From a virus: a stretch of DNA of 28,144 bases. A program made the translations under genes and the position numbers. Within the stretch, counting starts at the first letter, position 1, and every line of letters begins with the position of its first letter. Under the pieces are notes generated by a model. That model was not told the origin of the DNA and made no database searches. It saw nothing but the letters and a program-made list of their open reading frames with translations. This document shows positions 5,145-12,467 of the stretch, one piece after another. Location of the stretch: the IMG/VR virus record IMGVR_UViG_3300037104_000139, positions 1-28,144 of that record; one strand, written 5' to 3'.

Positions 5145-5240
5145 ATCGAGTTAAAAGCCGATCCCACAACCATCGGCAAGCGAGGCGTGGGCGCCAGGGC
5201 GCTCGCAGGCGCGCAACCTGAACAACACAAGGAGAAGCTC

Positions 5241-6578
5241 ATGTACGCCAAAGCGTTACGGGAAAAGCTCGCGCCACTGGCCGCCCAGTTGCAGGCCATT
5301 GTGGACAAAGCGAAAAACGAAAACAACCGGGGCCTGACCTCCGAAGAGCGTGAGAAGTTTCACGCGCTCGAAACCGAATACACGGCCCTCGAAGACAGCA
5401 TCAAGGCCGCCGAAAAGGCGACCTCCATTGTGGACGCGCTGGCCGCCGCGCCGGGTGGCGTAAAGCCCACGGAAGTCCAGGTGGAAGAGCTCCAGGACAC
5501 CATGCGGATCACCGGCAAGGCCCGCGCCGAGCGCATGAAGGACGCCGCTTACCGGGCGTTCTCGAAATGGCTGCGGCATGGGCTGGCCGCGCTCGACTCC
5601 GAGGAGCGGATTCACATGCGGATCGATAACGATCCCAGGATTCGCGCTCAGCAGACGCTCACCACCACGGGCGGCGGCTACCTGATCCCTACCGGATTTT
5701 CCGGCATGCTCGAAGAGGCCAAGAAATGGTTCGGCGGGATCGAAGGCGTGGTGGAGAAGTTCACCACGGAAAGCGGCGCTCCCTTTCCCTGGCCGACCGT
5801 AAACGACACGACGAATCGTGGGCGCATCATCGGCGTGAATGTGCAGGTGACCGAAACGGACTTCGCGTTCAACTCGGTCACGTTCAACGCTTACATCGGA
5901 TCGAGCGACCTGATTCTGATCCCGCTCGCTCTGATGCAGGATGCCTTCTTCGATATGGACGCCCTGACCGCGCGCCTGCTCGGTACCCGTCTCGGACGTC
6001 TGTACAACTGGAAGTGCACGCTCGGGACCGGCTCCTCCGAACCCTATGGCATCGTGCCCGCGGCCTATGCCGCCGGGGGAACCTACCAGTTCGCCAGCGC
6101 CAGCGGCGCCGGCGTCACGGCCCCGGCCTATGCGGACCTGGTGGAGCTGGAGCACACCGTCAATCCGGCGTACCGGTTCAACCCGGCCACCCGCTGGATG
6201 TTCAGCGATCTGGTGCTGAAATCCCTCAAGAAGATGGTGGATAGCGTGAACCGGCCGCTATGGCAGCCGGGGCTTTCGGCCAGCTTCCGCGACGGCGCCG
6301 CGGTGGATCTGATCGCGGCCAAGCCGCTCATCCTCGATCACCCCTATGTCATCAACCAGGACATGGCGACGCCGGCCGCCAGCGCCAAGTCCGTGCTCTT
6401 CGGCGATATGAGCACCTTCAAGGTGCGTGAAGTGGCCGGAGGAACCACGGTCATGCGGCTGGTGGAGCGCTACGCCGATTACCTCCAGGTCGGCTTCATC
6501 GCCTTCCAGCGGTTCGATTCCCAACTCATCGATGCCGGCACGCACCCGGTAGCCGTCGGCATCAACGCCACGAGCTAA
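5241..6578 (+). CDS. Major capsid protein, HK97 fold
   Basis: Builds the icosahedral shell. Residues 1 to about 135 are a highly charged, coiled-coil-rich delta (scaffold) domain (for example LTSEEREKFHALETEYTALE). They are followed by the junction QQTLTTTGGGYLIPTGF, where HK97-type capsid proteins are typically cut and the mature N-arm begins. The remainder fits the family: E-loop and P-domain region, LYNWKCTLGTGSSEPYGI, and the A-domain end with VLFGDMSTFKVRE and RYADYLQVGFIAFQRFD. Start ATG 5241 has AAGGAGA at 5229-5235, the best ribosome binding site in the region, as expected for the most abundant protein. No separate scaffold gene is seen, consistent with the built-in delta domain. A strong terminator follows 26 bases downstream. 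Confidence 0.96.
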   Translation: MYAKALREKLAPLAAQLQAIVDKAKNENNRGLTSEEREKFHALETEYTALEDSIKAAEKATSIVDALAAAPGGVKPTEVQVEELQDTMRITGKARAERMKDAAYRAFSKWLRHGLAALDSEERIHMRIDNDPRIRAQQTLTTTGGGYLIPTGFSGMLEEAKKWFGGIEGVVEKFTTESGAPFPWPTVNDTTNRGRIIGVNVQVTETDFAFNSVTFNAYIGSSDLILIPLALMQDAFFDMDALTARLLGTRLGRLYNWKCTLGTGSSEPYGIVPAAYAAGGTYQFASASGAGVTAPAYADLVELEHTVNPAYRFNPATRWMFSDLVLKSLKKMVDSVNRPLWQPGLSASFRDGAAVDLIAAKPLILDHPYVINQDMATPAASAKSVLFGDMSTFKVREVAGGTTVMRLVERYADYLQVGFIAFQRFDSQLIDAGTHPVAVGINATS

Positions 6579-6604
6579 GCGAACACCGGATTCTCCCATC
6601 TGCA

Positions 6605-6644
6605 GCGTGCGGCCCAATATCCTCCAGGGGCCGCACGCCTTTTT
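6605..6644 (+). terminator. Intrinsic (rho-independent) terminator after capsid gene
   Basis: A perfect 11-base stem, GCGTGCGGCCC at 6605-6615 and GGGCCGCACGC at 6628-6638, encloses a 12-base loop. It is followed by C and a run of five T at 6640-6644. It sits between the capsid stop and the homing endonuclease gene and would terminate or attenuate late transcription after the head genes. Confidence 0.88.
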
Positions 6645-6671
6645 GAAAGACAACGGTCAGCCGACTGTCTT

Positions 6672-7172
6672 ATGCGCGAGTCGCTTCACATACACCACAT
6701 CTGCCCGAGGCACCACCTGGGATATGAGGATAATTCCCCAGATAATCTAACCCCTCTAATTTCGGTGAGGCTTCACGCAGAATTGCATCATGATCTATAT
6801 CGAAAATTCGGGAAAATTGGCGATCTTATTGCGTGGAGGATGCTCTCCGGTCAATCACTGAAGGGAATTGCTCCGTGGAACAAAGGCAAGACTGGCGTGT
6901 ACTCGAAAGAGATGCTGGCAGGCATCGCCAAAAGCAGGACGGGCAGACTCCATTCGATGGAAACGCGCACGAAAATGGCCTGTTCACAAAAGGGCAAAAA
7001 TACATGGAGCAAGGGGCGGCGGCTATCCGAAGAGCATCGAAAACAAATTGCAGCCGCGCGCGCAAGGCGCAATCCCCTGAATCCCCGCGCCAAACGTAAA
7101 TTCCTAGAAGTCGGAGCGCTCTACCGATTCAAGTCCGGCCACATCCCTTGGAATAAGAGGATCGGAGGGTAA
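6672..7172 (+). CDS. HNH homing endonuclease with NUMOD3-type DNA-binding repeats
   Basis: A free-standing mobile endonuclease gene of 166 residues. The N-terminal HNH motif is compact: HIHHICPRHH (His8/His9), PDNLTPL (Asn25) and RLHAELHH (His35/His39). It is followed by LYRKFGKIGDLIAWRMLSGQ, the arrangement typical of phage HNH homing nucleases. Residues about 68-130 carry repeated Lys/Gly/Ser-rich modules (NKGKTG, RTGRL, QKGKNTWSKG, LSEEHRKQIAAARA) that match NUMOD3-like DNA-binding repeats. The gene is visibly more AT-rich than its neighbours and has no good Shine-Dalgarno sequence, both signs of insertion. It lies between the capsid terminator and the connector gene, and its last codons contain the GGAGGG that probably serves the connector. 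Confidence 0.88.
   Translation: MRESLHIHHICPRHHLGYEDNSPDNLTPLISVRLHAELHHDLYRKFGKIGDLIAWRMLSGQSLKGIAPWNKGKTGVYSKEMLAGIAKSRTGRLHSMETRTKMACSQKGKNTWSKGRRLSEEHRKQIAAARARRNPLNPRAKRKFLEVGALYRFKSGHIPWNKRIGG
7164..7169 (+). promoter_or_regulatory. Shine-Dalgarno GGAGGG for the connector gene
   Basis: GGAGGG lies inside the last codons of the HNH gene. It is seven bases before ACG at 7177, the codon at which family-like N-terminal residues of the connector begin. It is 52 bases from the first ATG at 7222, too far to serve that start directly. This supports initiation at 7177. Confidence 0.55.
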
Positions 7173-7221
7173 TTTTACGGCCCTAATCTGCACAGCCCCG
7201 CCACTCGTTGAACCGGTCTCG

Positions 7222-8064
7222 ATGCAAGAGCTGAAGGACATGCTCCGCATGGACCAGGGCGATACCACCCAGGACGACGTCCTGACGACGCTCGAAGTAG
7301 CGGCGCGGGCGTGGTGCGAAACACTCACACAGCGCCGCTTCGTTCAGCAGACCTGGGCGCTGATGATGGATTTCTTCCCCGGTTACATCGACATGAAGCT
7401 GGCCGGCCAGAAGGTGTCGTCTCCCTTCGTCTCCGGATCGAACGCCGTGCTGGTGGGCATTCGTTACGCAATCCTGCTTCCGTATCCGCCCGTGCAGAAC
7501 CTGGTCGCATTCGTTTACCAGGATGCCAACGGCGCCGTTGCGGACATGACGAACGGGCATCCAGACGCCCCGGCAGAATGGAACTTCGTCTTGGATCTGC
7601 AATCACAGCCGGCGCGCCTCACGCCGCTGTTCGGCCAAATGTGGCCCGTGGCTCGCGTGGTCGTCAATGCCGTGCAGGTGAACTACAAGGTCGGCTACGC
7701 CACGCCGATGGCAGTGACCACAACAAGCGGCGCCGACGCCCTCACGGGCGGTTCCTTCACTCAATCGAACGTGGGCCAGCCGATCTCGATCCCAGGGGCT
7801 GGCGTACTTGGAGGGTGCCTGAACACGGTAATAGCCTCGGTCGACGATTCCGGCGCGGCGTCGATGCGCGATCCAGCATTGACCGGCGGGGCCGCGACCG
7901 CGCTCCTGGTCACCAATGGTACGCCGGGGCATTGGGAACTGCTGAAGCTTGCCATCAAGGTCTTGGTGAACGCCTGGTACGTGAACCGCATTCCGAGTTT
8001 TGACGCCAAGGCGCGCGATTGTGTGAAAGCGGTCTTGGGTCCGGTCATGGATTTGAGGCTTTGA
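7222..8064 (+). CDS. Head-tail connector (gp6-like), with inserted beta domain
   Basis: Adaptor ring that binds beneath the portal. The coordinates use the only ordinary start codon, ATG 7222. The same frame is open from 7108, and codons 7180-7221 read ALICTAPPLVEPVS, the usual N-terminus of connector proteins before the helical MQELKDMLRMD segment. Translation therefore most likely begins at ACG 7177, giving 295 residues. The fold is supported by LEVAARAWCETLTQRRFVQQ, a central strand region and the C-terminal helix ELLKLAIKVLVNAWYVNR. Between GYATP and that helix, residues about 163-232 (numbered from 7222) form an extra Gly/Ser/Thr-rich beta region (GGSFTQSNVGQPISIPGAG) absent from simple connectors. 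Head-closure protein follows directly. Confidence 0.88.
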   Translation: MQELKDMLRMDQGDTTQDDVLTTLEVAARAWCETLTQRRFVQQTWALMMDFFPGYIDMKLAGQKVSSPFVSGSNAVLVGIRYAILLPYPPVQNLVAFVYQDANGAVADMTNGHPDAPAEWNFVLDLQSQPARLTPLFGQMWPVARVVVNAVQVNYKVGYATPMAVTTTSGADALTGGSFTQSNVGQPISIPGAGVLGGCLNTVIASVDDSGAASMRDPALTGGAATALLVTNGTPGHWELLKLAIKVLVNAWYVNRIPSFDAKARDCVKAVLGPVMDLRL

Positions 8065-8427
8065 ATGTCGCTCGGCTCCGATTGGCCCACGGTTGATCCT
8101 GGACGGTTCCGGCATCAGATCACTCTCTTGCAGCAGGTCGCGGGGTCGGATGCGTCGGGCGCGAAGGTCGATTACCGGGCAGATGATATTCCCGTGACGG
8201 CGTGGGCTGATTTTGAGTACCTCCGGGGAACCGACATCATCAAAGCCGGTCAGGATATCTCGCAGGTGTACGTCAAGGTCACCATGTGGTTTCGGCCGGA
8301 GTTCACAGCGAACAAGCGAATTCAGACCTCGGACGGCGCGCAATTCGTGATTCAGGCTGTGGAGAACGTGAGGCGGATGAACATCTACGCCGTGTTGATG
8401 TGCCTCGGGATCGGGCCGAATAACTGA
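8065..8427 (+). CDS. Head closure / head-tail joining protein
   Basis: A 120-residue protein matching the phage head-tail joining family (SPP1 gp16-like). These proteins plug the connector after packaging and form the surface on which the tail docks. Visible hallmarks are the opening PGRFRHQITLLQQVAGSD, then VTAWADFEYLRGTDIIKAGQ, and the strand pair VKVTMWFRPEF / FVIQAVENVRRMNIYAVLMC. ATG 8065 directly abuts the connector stop. In canonical siphophage order the next genes are an HK97 gp10-like protein and the tail terminator. Here the radical SAM and glycosyltransferase cassette comes next instead, ten bases downstream. Confidence 0.9.
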   Translation: MSLGSDWPTVDPGRFRHQITLLQQVAGSDASGAKVDYRADDIPVTAWADFEYLRGTDIIKAGQDISQVYVKVTMWFRPEFTANKRIQTSDGAQFVIQAVENVRRMNIYAVLMCLGIGPNN

Positions 8428-8437
8428 AGGCGACAAG

Positions 8438-9679
8438 GTGAAGGAAGTTCTTCTAATCAATCCGCGGTCCGAGTTCCTCGCGGAGCCGGCCTTCGTGCCT
8501 CCCCTGGGCTTGCTCTATTTGGGAGCCGCGCTCGAGGCGCACGGGTTCCGCGTGCGGGTGGCTGATCTGAACTTGCCCGGTGAGACGCTCGATGGATATA
8601 ACCCATCATTGATCGGAGTGACCTGCGTCACGGCCCAGTTTGTGGCGGTGCGATCTCTGGTCTCACGATCCCGGTCTCTCTATCCGGGCGTACGGGTGGC
8701 GGTTGGAGGGCCACACCTCTCGGTGCGCAGGGATGCGGAGCGCCTGGGCGCGGATGTTGGCGTCGCCGGCGACGGAGAGGAAACGATCATCGCTTTGGCT
8801 GTTGGGAATGGCGAGGGCCGCGGGCCCGTGGACGTCGACCGGTACCCGATTCCCGCACGTCATTTGGTGCCGATCGCGGATTATTCGTGCGCGGTGGACG
8901 GAGAAGCCGCAACTTCGCTTGTCTCGCAACGGGGCTGCCCGTTCGCGTGTGCTTTCTGCTCGCGATGGGCCAGCACGCGCAAGGTGCGCGCGCGGCTGGT
9001 CGACAACGTCATCGAGGAGATCGGCCAGTTGAAGGATATGGGTTTCGGCTCCCTGGTCTTCCATGACGATGAGATGAATTTATTGAACGCCCGTCTGCTG
9101 GACCTCTGCCGGCGAATGGCTCCGCTCGGCATGCGGTTCAAGGCCAACGCGCGGGCGGACCTGTTGACGCGCGAGCAGGTTGAGGCCTTCGCCGCGGCTG
9201 GATGCTCGTGGCTGTGTTTCGGCGTAGAGAGTGGATCAGCGGAGATACTGCGCAGAGTTTCTAAGGGAACGACTCCCGAGGTCAACTCGCTCGCGCGGCG
9301 GTTCTGCCGCGAGGCGCGGATCAAATTCAAGGCATTCACCATCATCGGTCTGCCGGGCGAGACGCGAGAGACCGTGGAGCAGACGCGGCGCTGGTTGATT
9401 GAGAACGAAGTAGACGATCTGACGGTCACGATGCTGGTTCCATACCCCGGTAGCGCGATCCACGAGCACCCGGAACGATTCGACGTAGAGTTCGAACTCG
9501 ATTACGAGCGGCGCGGCGTTCCCTTCCGCGGCGCGGCCGGCCTGGAACTGCCACGCACCACGCGCACAACCGCCCTTGACGCGGGCGAGCTGGCGGAGTT
9601 GCCCGAGATCGTCGAAGCATCGGTGCGCCGAGAGTTGGGCTTATCGCGCCGCACGTCCGGCCAGGAGGTCGCGGCTTGA
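8438..9679 (+). CDS. B12-binding-domain radical SAM enzyme
   Basis: A 413-residue radical SAM protein of the class with an N-terminal cobalamin-binding domain. Residues 1 to about 130 are the Rossmann-like part (PPLGLLYLGAALEAHGF, VGGPHLSV, GDGEE). No DxHxxG motif is visible, so any cobalamin would be held base-off without protein histidine. The [4Fe-4S] cluster motif is CPFACAFC (C167, C171, C174). TIM-barrel signatures follow: FHDDEMN, FGVESGSAEILRRVSKG and IIGLPGETRET. Such enzymes methylate or rearrange unactivated carbons using S-adenosylmethionine; the substrate here is unknown. The start is GTG 8438 with AAGG at 8427-8430. Its stop overlaps the TTG start of the glycosyltransferase gene, so the products are probably made together. 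Intact and unexpected in a structural operon. Confidence 0.93.
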   Translation: MKEVLLINPRSEFLAEPAFVPPLGLLYLGAALEAHGFRVRVADLNLPGETLDGYNPSLIGVTCVTAQFVAVRSLVSRSRSLYPGVRVAVGGPHLSVRRDAERLGADVGVAGDGEETIIALAVGNGEGRGPVDVDRYPIPARHLVPIADYSCAVDGEAATSLVSQRGCPFACAFCSRWASTRKVRARLVDNVIEEIGQLKDMGFGSLVFHDDEMNLLNARLLDLCRRMAPLGMRFKANARADLLTREQVEAFAAAGCSWLCFGVESGSAEILRRVSKGTTPEVNSLARRFCREARIKFKAFTIIGLPGETRETVEQTRRWLIENEVDDLTVTMLVPYPGSAIHEHPERFDVEFELDYERRGVPFRGAAGLELPRTTRTTALDAGELAELPEIVEASVRRELGLSRRTSGQEVAA

Positions 9680-11097
9680 GAGCGCTGGCCATCATGCCCG
9701 TCCGGAACGAGGCGGACATTTTGCCCTGGACCGTCCAGCACCTCGTTGACCAGGGCGTCGAGGTGTACATCATCGACAATTGGAGCACAGACGGCAGTTG
9801 GGAAATGCTTTCCTGGCTGCCGATCAGCGGGCGGGAGCGGTTTCCCTCGAGCGGTCCCGAGGATCGCTATAACTGCCTCTCCATGCTACACCGCGTCGAT
9901 GAGGTGGCCGCCGCGTCTAAGGCTGACTGGTGCATCTTCCACGACGCCGATGAAATTCGGCGCAGTCCGCGACCAGGCGAAACGATAGTCCGCGGCCTTC
10001 AGCGAGTAGAGGCCGAAGGCTACAACGCGGTCAATCACAATCTGTATCTGTTCAGGCCGATTGACGACGATTATATCGGCGACCCGGAGAGGCACTTTTC
10101 CTATTACACCAGGGCGCACGTCGACTGCGGGCTGAACCACATCAAGGCGTGGAAGAACACCGGCAGGTTGACCGGCCTGGGAACGCGGGCGGCCGGCGGA
10201 GGCCACGCCTTCGGCTTTCCGGGGATGAAAGTCCATCCCCAAAAGTGGGTCCTAAAACACTACCCGATTCGCGGGCAGCGGCACGGCGCCCGCAAGATGG
10301 CCGAGCGCCTGAATCGCTGGAATACAGAGGAGCGCTCCTGGGGCTGGCATGTCCAGTACGAGGGGTTGTCGGCTGGCTCTAACTTCCTCGAGGATCCGAA
10401 CACCCTCCAGTGCTGGGAGGATAACCTGCCGCGCGTGACCATCGTCACCCTCTCGCGTTTCAAGGACGTGTTTTTGCGGCTGCACGAATCCGTCAACCAC
10501 TACGCCGCCACATTCCCGCGCCTGATGGTATCGGATGGCGACTGGGTGTCGCCTTCTCCCTGGACGGTGGTGCGTGGTAAGCGTCCGTTCGTTTTCGCGC
10601 GCAACTGGAACATCGCCATCGAAGCCACCGATTCGGATTCGGACGTACTGTTTACCAATGACGATGTGATTTTCAGTCAGCCAGGCACCGTCGACGAGCT
10701 GCGCCGAGCGGCGTACTCCAAAACAAATATAGGAATCGTCTCTCCACAGGTTGTCGGAAGCGTAGCGAACCCATTGCAGGTCTCCGGATGCAGGCTCCGC
10801 GAGGTCACGCTGGCCCAGCATGAGCTTGCATTCGTCTGTGTCTATATCAAGCGCGCGGTATTGAGCGCGGTTGGCGAAATGGACGAGAGATTTACGGGCT
10901 ACGGTTCCGATGATTTCGATTTCTGCCGGAGGGCCCAGCAGGCGGGGTTTACGCTCGCGGTCACGCCAAAGGCCACGGTGATCCACGGGCATGAAAGTGG
11001 CACAGGCTCGACGTCGTACCGCCGGATCATGTCCGATTCCGACTGGCGCGCGTCAATGGCCGATATGAATCGGGTGCTGGAACAGAAATGGGCGTGA
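9676..11097 (+). CDS. Two-domain glycosyltransferase (tandem GT2 / GT-A)
   Basis: A 473-residue soluble protein with two GT-A domains. Domain 1, residues 1 to about 245, has the opening ALAIMPVRNEADILPWTV, IIDNWSTDGS and the metal-binding FHDADE (D90, D92); it resembles the Glyco_tranf_2_4 type. Domain 2, residues about 254-470, begins RVTIVTLSRFKD. It carries TNDD (N328-D330) in place of DxD, and the acceptor/catalytic region GYGSDDFDFCRRA (D412, D413, D415), like rhamnosyltransferase-type GT2 enzymes. There is no membrane segment, so it should act in the cytoplasm. The start is TTG 9676 inside the radical SAM stop (TTGA), and it overlaps the next gene by 10 bases. Donor and acceptor sugars cannot be read from the sequence. 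Confidence 0.93.
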   Translation: MRALAIMPVRNEADILPWTVQHLVDQGVEVYIIDNWSTDGSWEMLSWLPISGRERFPSSGPEDRYNCLSMLHRVDEVAAASKADWCIFHDADEIRRSPRPGETIVRGLQRVEAEGYNAVNHNLYLFRPIDDDYIGDPERHFSYYTRAHVDCGLNHIKAWKNTGRLTGLGTRAAGGGHAFGFPGMKVHPQKWVLKHYPIRGQRHGARKMAERLNRWNTEERSWGWHVQYEGLSAGSNFLEDPNTLQCWEDNLPRVTIVTLSRFKDVFLRLHESVNHYAATFPRLMVSDGDWVSPSPWTVVRGKRPFVFARNWNIAIEATDSDSDVLFTNDDVIFSQPGTVDELRRAAYSKTNIGIVSPQVVGSVANPLQVSGCRLREVTLAQHELAFVCVYIKRAVLSAVGEMDERFTGYGSDDFDFCRRAQQAGFTLAVTPKATVIHGHESGTGSTSYRRIMSDSDWRASMADMNRVLEQKWA

Positions 11098-12467
11098 CGC
11101 TCATCACGCCGACCGGGGGCAGGCCCGAGGCGTTCTCCCTGTGCGAACGGTGGATAGCGCGCCAGACCTATCGCGGAGAGGTTCAGTGGATCGTGGTGGA
11201 CGACTGCGAAAGATCCACGCCTTTGACAATGGGGCAGGTCTCTATACGCCCGCAACCTTTCTGGCGCCTCGGGGAGAATTCGCAGCACCGGAACATCCTT
11301 GCCGCATTGCCTTTAGTTCAGTTCGACAAGGTGCTCATCATCGAAGATGACGATTGGTACGCACCCACCTACCTTGAGACGATGGCGTGGCGGCTGGAGG
11401 CTGCCCCGCTTGTGGGCGAATATCCCGGCCGATATTACAACGTTCGGTCTCGCATGTGGATGGACTGCGGAAACGACAAGCATGCCTCGCTGTTTCAGAC
11501 GGGAATCCGCGCCAAATACCTGCCGTTGCTGAAGGGGGTCTGCGAATCTGGCGCATTGATTGATGTGGCGCTGTGGGGAACGGCCGGCGAAAAGCAATTG
11601 TTCGGTGGCAATGAGACGGTGGGAATAAAGGGCCTTCCGGGTCGACCCGGGCAGGGTTGGCCCCACCGGCATGGCGGCGAATTGATGACGCCAGACCCGG
11701 ACCTCGAGCTGCTGTGTTGGTGGATCGGAGAGGACGCCCGCGCCTATCGCGAATTTTTCAATGTGCCGCTCGTGTCCTGCATCTGCCCCACTACCGAGCG
11801 GCGCCGGGAATGGCTGCCGCGTGCCATCGACAGCTTTCAGCGCCAGAGCTGGCCCAACAAGGAAATGTGGGTCATTTCCGAGGACGAGTCCGTGGGGCTG
11901 ATCCCAGTTGGCGACCCGCAAGTGCTCTTCCGTTTTGAACCTAGGCGCGGGTTGAGCCTTGGGGAAAAGCGCAATTTGGCCTGCGAGCAAAGTCGTGGCG
12001 AGATAATCTGCCACTTCGATGATGACGATTACAGTGCCCCGGGCCGTATTGCCGATCAGGTTCGGCGCCTCCAGCAGACGGGCAAGGAGGTAACCGCATA
12101 CCACACGATCCTGGTCCGCGAAACTCGCGATATCCGCGTGGTGGAGAACGGCAAGGCCCGGCCGAGCTCGGGCTGGTGGAGTCTTCACAAGACCGACGGC
12201 TTGGTGACCGGAACGTCTCTATGCTACCGCCGCGAATGGTGGCAGGGACATCGATTCGAGCCGGTAGGTTGCGGGGAAGATGATCGTTTCTGGGCTGCCG
12301 CAGAGCGGGCTGGCGCCGCGATAGCGGTTGACGGCCGCGATCTGCTCTACGCCACGAACCACGCCGACAACGTGAGCGGGCGCGTGATCGGGGGCGCGGC
12401 CTGGGAAGAATTGGCGGGGAACCCGTACATGCGGCGTTTTCATCGCGCTGAGGAGGCGCTTGTATGA
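11088..12467 (+). CDS. Second two-domain glycosyltransferase (tandem GT-A)
   Basis: A 459-residue protein again built from two GT-A units. Domain 1 starts GVTLITPTGGRPEAFSLCER. It has WIVVDDC (D38, D39) for nucleotide binding and IIEDDDWY (D87-D89) as the metal site. Domain 2 starts near residue 226 (LVSCICPTTERRREWLPRAI), with the metal site HFDDDDYS (D311-D314) and a late acidic motif GEDDRFW (E397-D399). There is no transmembrane or signal sequence. I recall single-domain relatives of domain 1 annotated as glycosyltransferases in phage genomes, but cannot verify that here. Its stop overlaps the tail-terminator start (ATGA), so the cassette feeds straight into the tail genes. Confidence 0.92.
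   Translation: MGVTLITPTGGRPEAFSLCERWIARQTYRGEVQWIVVDDCERSTPLTMGQVSIRPQPFWRLGENSQHRNILAALPLVQFDKVLIIEDDDWYAPTYLETMAWRLEAAPLVGEYPGRYYNVRSRMWMDCGNDKHASLFQTGIRAKYLPLLKGVCESGALIDVALWGTAGEKQLFGGNETVGIKGLPGRPGQGWPHRHGGELMTPDPDLELLCWWIGEDARAYREFFNVPLVSCICPTTERRREWLPRAIDSFQRQSWPNKEMWVISEDESVGLIPVGDPQVLFRFEPRRGLSLGEKRNLACEQSRGEIICHFDDDDYSAPGRIADQVRRLQQTGKEVTAYHTILVRETRDIRVVENGKARPSSGWWSLHKTDGLVTGTSLCYRREWWQGHRFEPVGCGEDDRFWAAAERAGAAIAVDGRDLLYATNHADNVSGRVIGGAAWEELAGNPYMRRFHRAEEALV

Follow-up and report, generated by a model that had tools for sequence, protein, structure and literature searches.

Among the closest described systems are the free-standing endonuclease genes of phage T4, in which, according to a review, promoters of essential neighbouring genes are embedded, an arrangement that favours retention of the endonuclease gene (PMC2988022). 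In this study we analysed a 28,144-base linear phage record from IMG/VR (the window), in which an endonuclease gene of this kind lies between a capsid gene and a head-tail connector gene and an ACG codon stands where the connector would be expected to start. To our knowledge natural ACG starts are very rare in bacteria and phages, and the common gene callers known to us reject ACG, so that genes with this start would enter annotations in truncated form.

The connector gene and its reading frame

The features considered here, in coordinates of the window, are the following.

5187..6578, + strand: major head protein gene, the upstream neighbour (PHROG_10 major head protein, E 1e-49)
6605..6643, + strand: GC-rich hairpin followed by T5, resembling an intrinsic terminator, between the capsid and connector genes (RNA fold -24.9 kcal/mol, z -3.9)
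6647..6671, + strand: short hairpin directly 5' of the HNH ATG, in type 1 alleles only (RNA fold -8.4 kcal/mol, z -2.5)
6672..7172, + strand: free-standing HNH/NUMOD3 homing endonuclease gene, 166 aa, a predicted inserted mobile gene (NUMOD3, homologues, presence/absence)
7164..7169, + strand: GGAGGG, putative Shine-Dalgarno (SD) sequence of the connector, within the two sense codons that precede the HNH stop
7177..7179, + strand: ACG, replacing ATG/GTG/TTG as the inferred connector start codon
7177..8064, + strand: head-tail connector (adaptor) gene, 295 aa counted from ACG (TIGR02215, PHROG_442, fold of GTA adaptor 6toa_D)
7222..7224, + strand: first in-frame ATG, a rival start at which 15 residues would be dropped (SD energy -2.4 kcal/mol; residues 2-7 predicted strand)
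8065..8427, + strand: head closure Hc1 gene, the downstream neighbour (PHROG_25, E 1.4e-10)

Profile matches and a predicted structure indicate that the connector is a TIGR02215 head-tail connector with an adaptor fold. The protein scores 49.6 bits against TIGR02215 (E 3.8e-13; curated cut-off 39) and matches the PHROG head-tail adaptors (PHROG_442), and its AlphaFold2 model (mean pLDDT 83.7) resembles the GTA adaptor 6toa_D both by Foldseek (E 1.6e-5) and by VIA-align (Z 13.4 over 186 residues, rmsd 3.1). A sequence search of solved structures gave weak matches by profile and none with the single protein.

Between the stop TAG at 7105-7107 and the next stop, at 8062-8064, the connector frame is uninterrupted, and ATG, GTG, TTG and CTG are all absent from it 5' of the ATG at 7222, as a preliminary description of this DNA had claimed and as a re-reading of the sequence bears out, coordinates included. 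The frame also contains two minor table-11 starts, ATA at 7153 and ATC at 7186, which that description omitted. It had further placed GGAGGG seven bases 5' of ACG and overlapping the last HNH codons, and the same coordinates were recovered here (7164-7169 and 7177), with the HNH stop TAA at 7170-7172 lying between the two. Codons 7180-7221, ALICTAPPLVEPVS, had been taken for the expected family N-terminus, and this agrees with the TIGR02215 alignment: residues 3-68 of the protein are aligned to positions 3-66 of the profile, so the first profile position falls on ACG. The N-terminus predicted for an ACG start is (M)ALICTAPPLVEPVSMQELK. Residue 1 of the model falls on residue 1 of 6toa chain D, the GTA adaptor, residues 2-7 form a confident predicted strand, and the first helix begins at residue 16. 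Both signals, the SD sequence and the family N-terminus, point to ACG, and a canonical start is absent at the family N-terminus. We consider it likely that ACG is the working start of the connector in the window type.

Two other regions of the connector may be mentioned in their own right. Residues 71-92 (7387-7452), which follow DFFPGY, are among the best conserved of the family and have a model pLDDT below 50. Residues 174-248 (7696-7920) resemble the decoration protein of Arthrobacter phage Bridgette and tailspike domains (8eci, Z 8.5; weak sequence match); they form an inserted beta domain, for which HK97 gp6, with 97 residues, has no room.

The start codon in relatives with and without the HNH gene

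Connector scans gave 31 loci, 51 loci and one bacterial MAG contig labelled Acidobacteria. The start was covered in 50 of the 51 loci, as ATG (33), GTG (11), TTG (1), ACG (4) and AGG (1), and the HNH gene was found upstream in exactly the four ACG loci (tblastn, matches in 4 of 52 loci). Together with the window, ACG thus occupies codon 1 in 5/5 HNH-bearing alleles (the others being the IMG/VR contigs L003, L004, L006 and L007). The preliminary description had proposed a comparison with relatives without the HNH gene, and these carry ATG, GTG or TTG at exactly the codon position of ACG in 46/46 usable cases (45/45 and, in addition, L131), with ACG in 0/46. For 5 versus 45 alleles this gives a Fisher p of 5e-7, the alleles being related and not phylogenetically independent. 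The 46 omit L095 (same contig as L015; start uncovered) and L130, the locus with AGG, which is 27% identical and probably starts a few codons upstream; they include some short contigs (e.g. L118, with ~94 bases upstream) too short to exclude an HNH gene, all with canonical starts, and near-identical pairs (e.g. L114/L115 and L105/L106) counted as separate relatives. Among isolate phages there was neither a DNA match to 6560-7300 nor a match to the connector protein.

The junction GGAGGGTAATTTTACGG is the same in the window and in the four other HNH-bearing contigs, which come from four different IMG datasets. The preliminary description had left a choice between initiation at ACG and an original ATG altered by a sequencing error or by a T-to-C transition. 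The first is supported here. Sequencing error is excluded for practical purposes by a junction that is identical in five records, which represent two HNH types as well as two flanking backgrounds, and a point mutation subsequent to insertion is rendered less likely by the position of ACG inside a block common to different backgrounds, described below. That the ACG reflects an error of sequencing or assembly, or that the phage is dead and its connector start broken, is scarcely credible to us: the records are indeed metagenome contigs, but an error would have to recur in all five of them, and in a dead phage one would not expect the connector frames of the HNH alleles to be intact, dN to be below dS, or the element to have spread to two backgrounds. 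When the connectors of the window, L003, L004 and L007 were compared in pairs, dN was lower than dS in all six cases, so the connector is still under selection.

Occupied and empty alleles of the insertion site

A pattern for codons 2-13 of both close haplotypes recovered six IMG/VR contigs, namely the four occupied ones and two empty alleles, L005 and L008. The site is therefore polymorphic, being occupied in the window, L003, L004, L006 and L007 and empty in L005 and L008, and the two empty alleles are near-identical to the occupied ones and have ATG at connector codon 1. The hairpin at 6605-6643, which the terminator pattern scan missed because its loop exceeds the limit of the scan, is retained in both empty alleles, where it lies directly 5' of the connector ATG and is followed by GAAAGACGCCA-ATG or GAAAGACAACCA-ATG. 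Occupied alleles keep this hairpin and GAAAGA, after which come the HNH gene, TAATTTT and, as codon 1, ACG. As a few bases before the ATG and the T of the ATG itself are gone, the insert represents a replacement at the start codon. That insertion of the HNH gene had reshaped the connector start was suggested in the preliminary description, and the near-identical uninserted alleles bear this out; a homing gene element has almost certainly replaced the connector start codon.

Comparison of the occupied alleles indicates that the HNH gene is one that moves independently of the genes flanking it. The window, L003 and L004 have the same HNH gene, base for base (501/501), while their connectors are 97.6-98.9% and the ends of their capsid genes 81.5-96.8% identical. 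The block without differences between the window and L003 extends over 542 nt, from the T-run before GAAAGA to 4 nt past the A of ACG, in which about 9-17 differences would be expected at the divergence of the flanks. L003 and L004 have 946 identical bases in common around the site and so represent one background. On the 3' side of the 542-nt block the window has the haplotype of the empty L008 and L003 that of the empty L005, and the combination of an identical block with differing flanks of these two types shows that the element moved between phage backgrounds. ACG lies within the moved block and thus travels with the element. A second type of HNH gene, present in L006 and L007, is 79.2% identical to the first (dN ~0.15, dS ~0.6-0.7) and is found at this site too, with an identical junction; those 18 nt are only modestly better conserved between the two types than expected (0.79^18 = 0.014).

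The homing endonuclease gene

Its sequence matches, and its presence or absence at one site, indicate that the HNH gene is a free-standing, mobile homing endonuclease gene. The protein matches NUMOD3 above the cut-off (E 9e-9) and annotated homing endonucleases of cyanophages, its best isolate relatives (E 3e-13). The HNH region itself (E 0.0061) is under the Pfam cut-off, and the catalytic part of the assignment is weak on that account. Searches for relatives in viral scans found the same four contigs and weak partial matches (L035-L038) only, and in a bacterial genome scan 42 pattern matches included no relative. The 3'-end sequence GGAGGGTAATTTTAC occurs in 41 stretches of IMG/VR, in which an HNH end together with a connector is found only in the four known contigs; the remaining stretches look like chance.

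NUMOD3/HNH proteins are often intron-encoded, and the HNH stop in GGA GGG TAA lies directly upstream of the connector start in the neighbouring frame. It could be argued, therefore, that a +1 shift at GGG-TAA yields an HNH-connector fusion, or that the HNH segment is spliced out of the mRNA as part of an intron. We regard either as very improbable. No relevant Rfam family, and no intron, was detected in the whole window at the gathering threshold, nor any intron family between 6500 and 7400 at E <= 5, and the part of the insert outside the open reading frame amounts to ~25 nt only. Moreover, precise excision would not restore the unoccupied sequence, since the bases before the ATG are missing on the 5' side, and the fusion of a 166-aa endonuclease to an adaptor ring is implausible. 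All of this is consistent with an HNH gene that is outside any self-splicing intron or intein.

The sequence at 6647-6671, which is missing from the type 2 alleles L006 and L007, folds into a hairpin reminiscent of those that repress homing endonucleases in T4 (PMC2988022).

Some observations on the virion genes further downstream may be added. After the head closure gene, and still inside the virion block, 8438-9679 encodes a B12-binding radical SAM protein (Pfam Radical_SAM E 9.5e-23, B12-binding E 7.4e-19), a gene that is present in 6/17 related loci searched, the closest ones. It is followed on its 3' side by two family-2 glycosyltransferase-like genes (9676-12467), a possible surface-modification island within the morphogenesis operon. 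In L005 ~1.1 kb (L005:6497-7638) separate the radical SAM gene from the gene that follows, the two being adjacent in the window, L003, L006, L007 and L008; this is perhaps another mobile insertion.

Translation signals and alternative starts

In E. coli translation starts very poorly at ACG; in an RFP library its output was 0.1-1.5% of that of ATG (PMC6925171). A strong SD sequence, a low demand for the adaptor ring and perhaps reinitiation would then be needed for ACG to serve the connector. Calculated against the 16S tail, the SD energies are -10.0 kcal/mol in type 1 and -9.8 kcal/mol in type 2 alleles, and when 50 starts were scored only 1 of the other 49 connectors had a stronger value than the window. 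By contrast the nearest empty alleles, L005 and L008, both have an SD energy of -0.9 and are among the three weakest of the 50. The strong SD thus arrived together with the poor start codon. The local RNA at the start is less structured than shuffled sequences (z +1.96), and by RNA folding part of the SD can pair with connector codons 1-3. We found no sigma-70-like promoter in 6400-7400, and no tRNA that might act as a special initiator in the window or in four related loci.

There is little likelihood that initiation occurs instead at another near-cognate codon. ATA at 7153 and ATC at 7186 are minor starts of table 11, but their SD energies in the window are only -2.4 and -3.9, respectively, and GGAGGG lies 16 bases before the latter. 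In the type 2 alleles L006 and L007 an in-frame TTG is present five codons 5' of ACG with an SD energy of -8.4, although the SD-like stretch nearly abuts the codon. Type 2 alleles may thus not need ACG. Type 1, which comprises the window and two further contigs, has TCG in place of this TTG, and it is in type 1, including the window, that the case for ACG is strongest.

A start at ATG 7222, by which the connector of occupied alleles would lack its first 15 residues and ACG would be a dead junction, is unlikely in our view, though there are structural arguments for it. This is the only ATG before the conserved helix and fits the beginning of that first helix at residue 16, and the distant adaptors of HK97 and phage HRP29 begin at or after model residues 9-15, the alignment with HK97 gp6 commencing at residue 9 and that with the HRP29 adaptor at residue 15. 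A truncated product is therefore not structurally impossible, the N-terminal segment being dispensable in some distant adaptors. Homologues without this segment had been named in the preliminary description as evidence against ACG; they were found only as these distant structural relatives and not within the family, in which the canonical start at codon 1 of all usable HNH-free relatives also argues against 7222. The SD energy before 7222 is just -2.4 kcal/mol, a confident beta-strand would be removed, and the strong, ideally spaced SD sequence before ACG would have to be a coincidence. Near-identical alleles whose codon 1 is itself ATG contain the ATG at 7222 as well, so it is no adaptation to the insertion.

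With ACG as the probable start, the following course of events could be envisaged. A free-standing HNH homing gene would have invaded the capsid-connector junction exactly at the connector start codon, and homing would have exchanged a weak SD and ATG for a strong SD and ACG. Ribosomes might then start the connector at ACG with fMet, aided by the strong SD and possibly by reinitiation; with the HNH stop codon placed between SD and ACG, termination-reinitiation is conceivable. The output of a strong SD with a poor start could approximate the low output of a poor SD with ATG in the unoccupied allele, and the essential connector would come to depend on the 3' end of a selfish gene. As the SD and start would now be the element's own, imprecise loss of the HNH gene might silence an essential virion gene, and retention of the element would be favoured. 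Whether such a locus should be seen as a translational addiction module, in which homing deletes the ATG and installs an SD and ACG tuned to the low natural output, giving a heritable natural ACG start, is a suggestion that we make tentatively.

Near-identical occupied and empty alleles provide a natural experiment on how the start signal of an essential gene may be captured by a selfish one, and on how the weakness of a start codon may be offset by a strong Shine-Dalgarno sequence.

Comparison with known systems

A literature search that covered few subscription journals found neither an ACG start in a gene of a bacterial phage nor a homing endonuclease that replaces the start codon of its neighbour. 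A free-standing homing endonuclease that carries expression signals of its neighbour is already known; the distinguishing feature here is the replacement of the start codon by ACG. The connector itself matches the TIGR02215/gp8-like connectors and GTA adaptor 6toa chain D by profile and fold, its start codon alone being unusual, whereas HK97 gp6 lacks both its first strand and its inserted beta domain. With respect to the start codon, the engineered ACG reporters of E. coli show weak initiation (PMC6925171), while the ACG described in this study is a fixed feature of a natural virion gene.

The best isolate match of the HNH protein is QIN96908 of Synechococcus phage S-H34 (39% identity over 73%, E 3e-13). 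Like the HNH gene of the window, the S-H34 gene is located in the neck-gene module, between two neck genes; S-H34 belongs, however, to a different phage group, and the annotated start of its downstream neck gene lies 18 nt beyond the endonuclease gene. The seg and mob genes of T4 (e.g. segG, upstream of gene 32) are likewise mobile genes of the HNH or GIY-YIG kind that lie between conserved genes of the phage, and they share with the present locus the location of a neighbour's expression signals inside the endonuclease gene. In the T4 examples, as the review describes them, those signals are promoters, whereas the embedded signal here would be translational, consisting of an SD sequence and a start codon, with the neighbour's own start replaced by ACG. 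By this analogy the present case would be the translational counterpart of the embedded promoters of T4.
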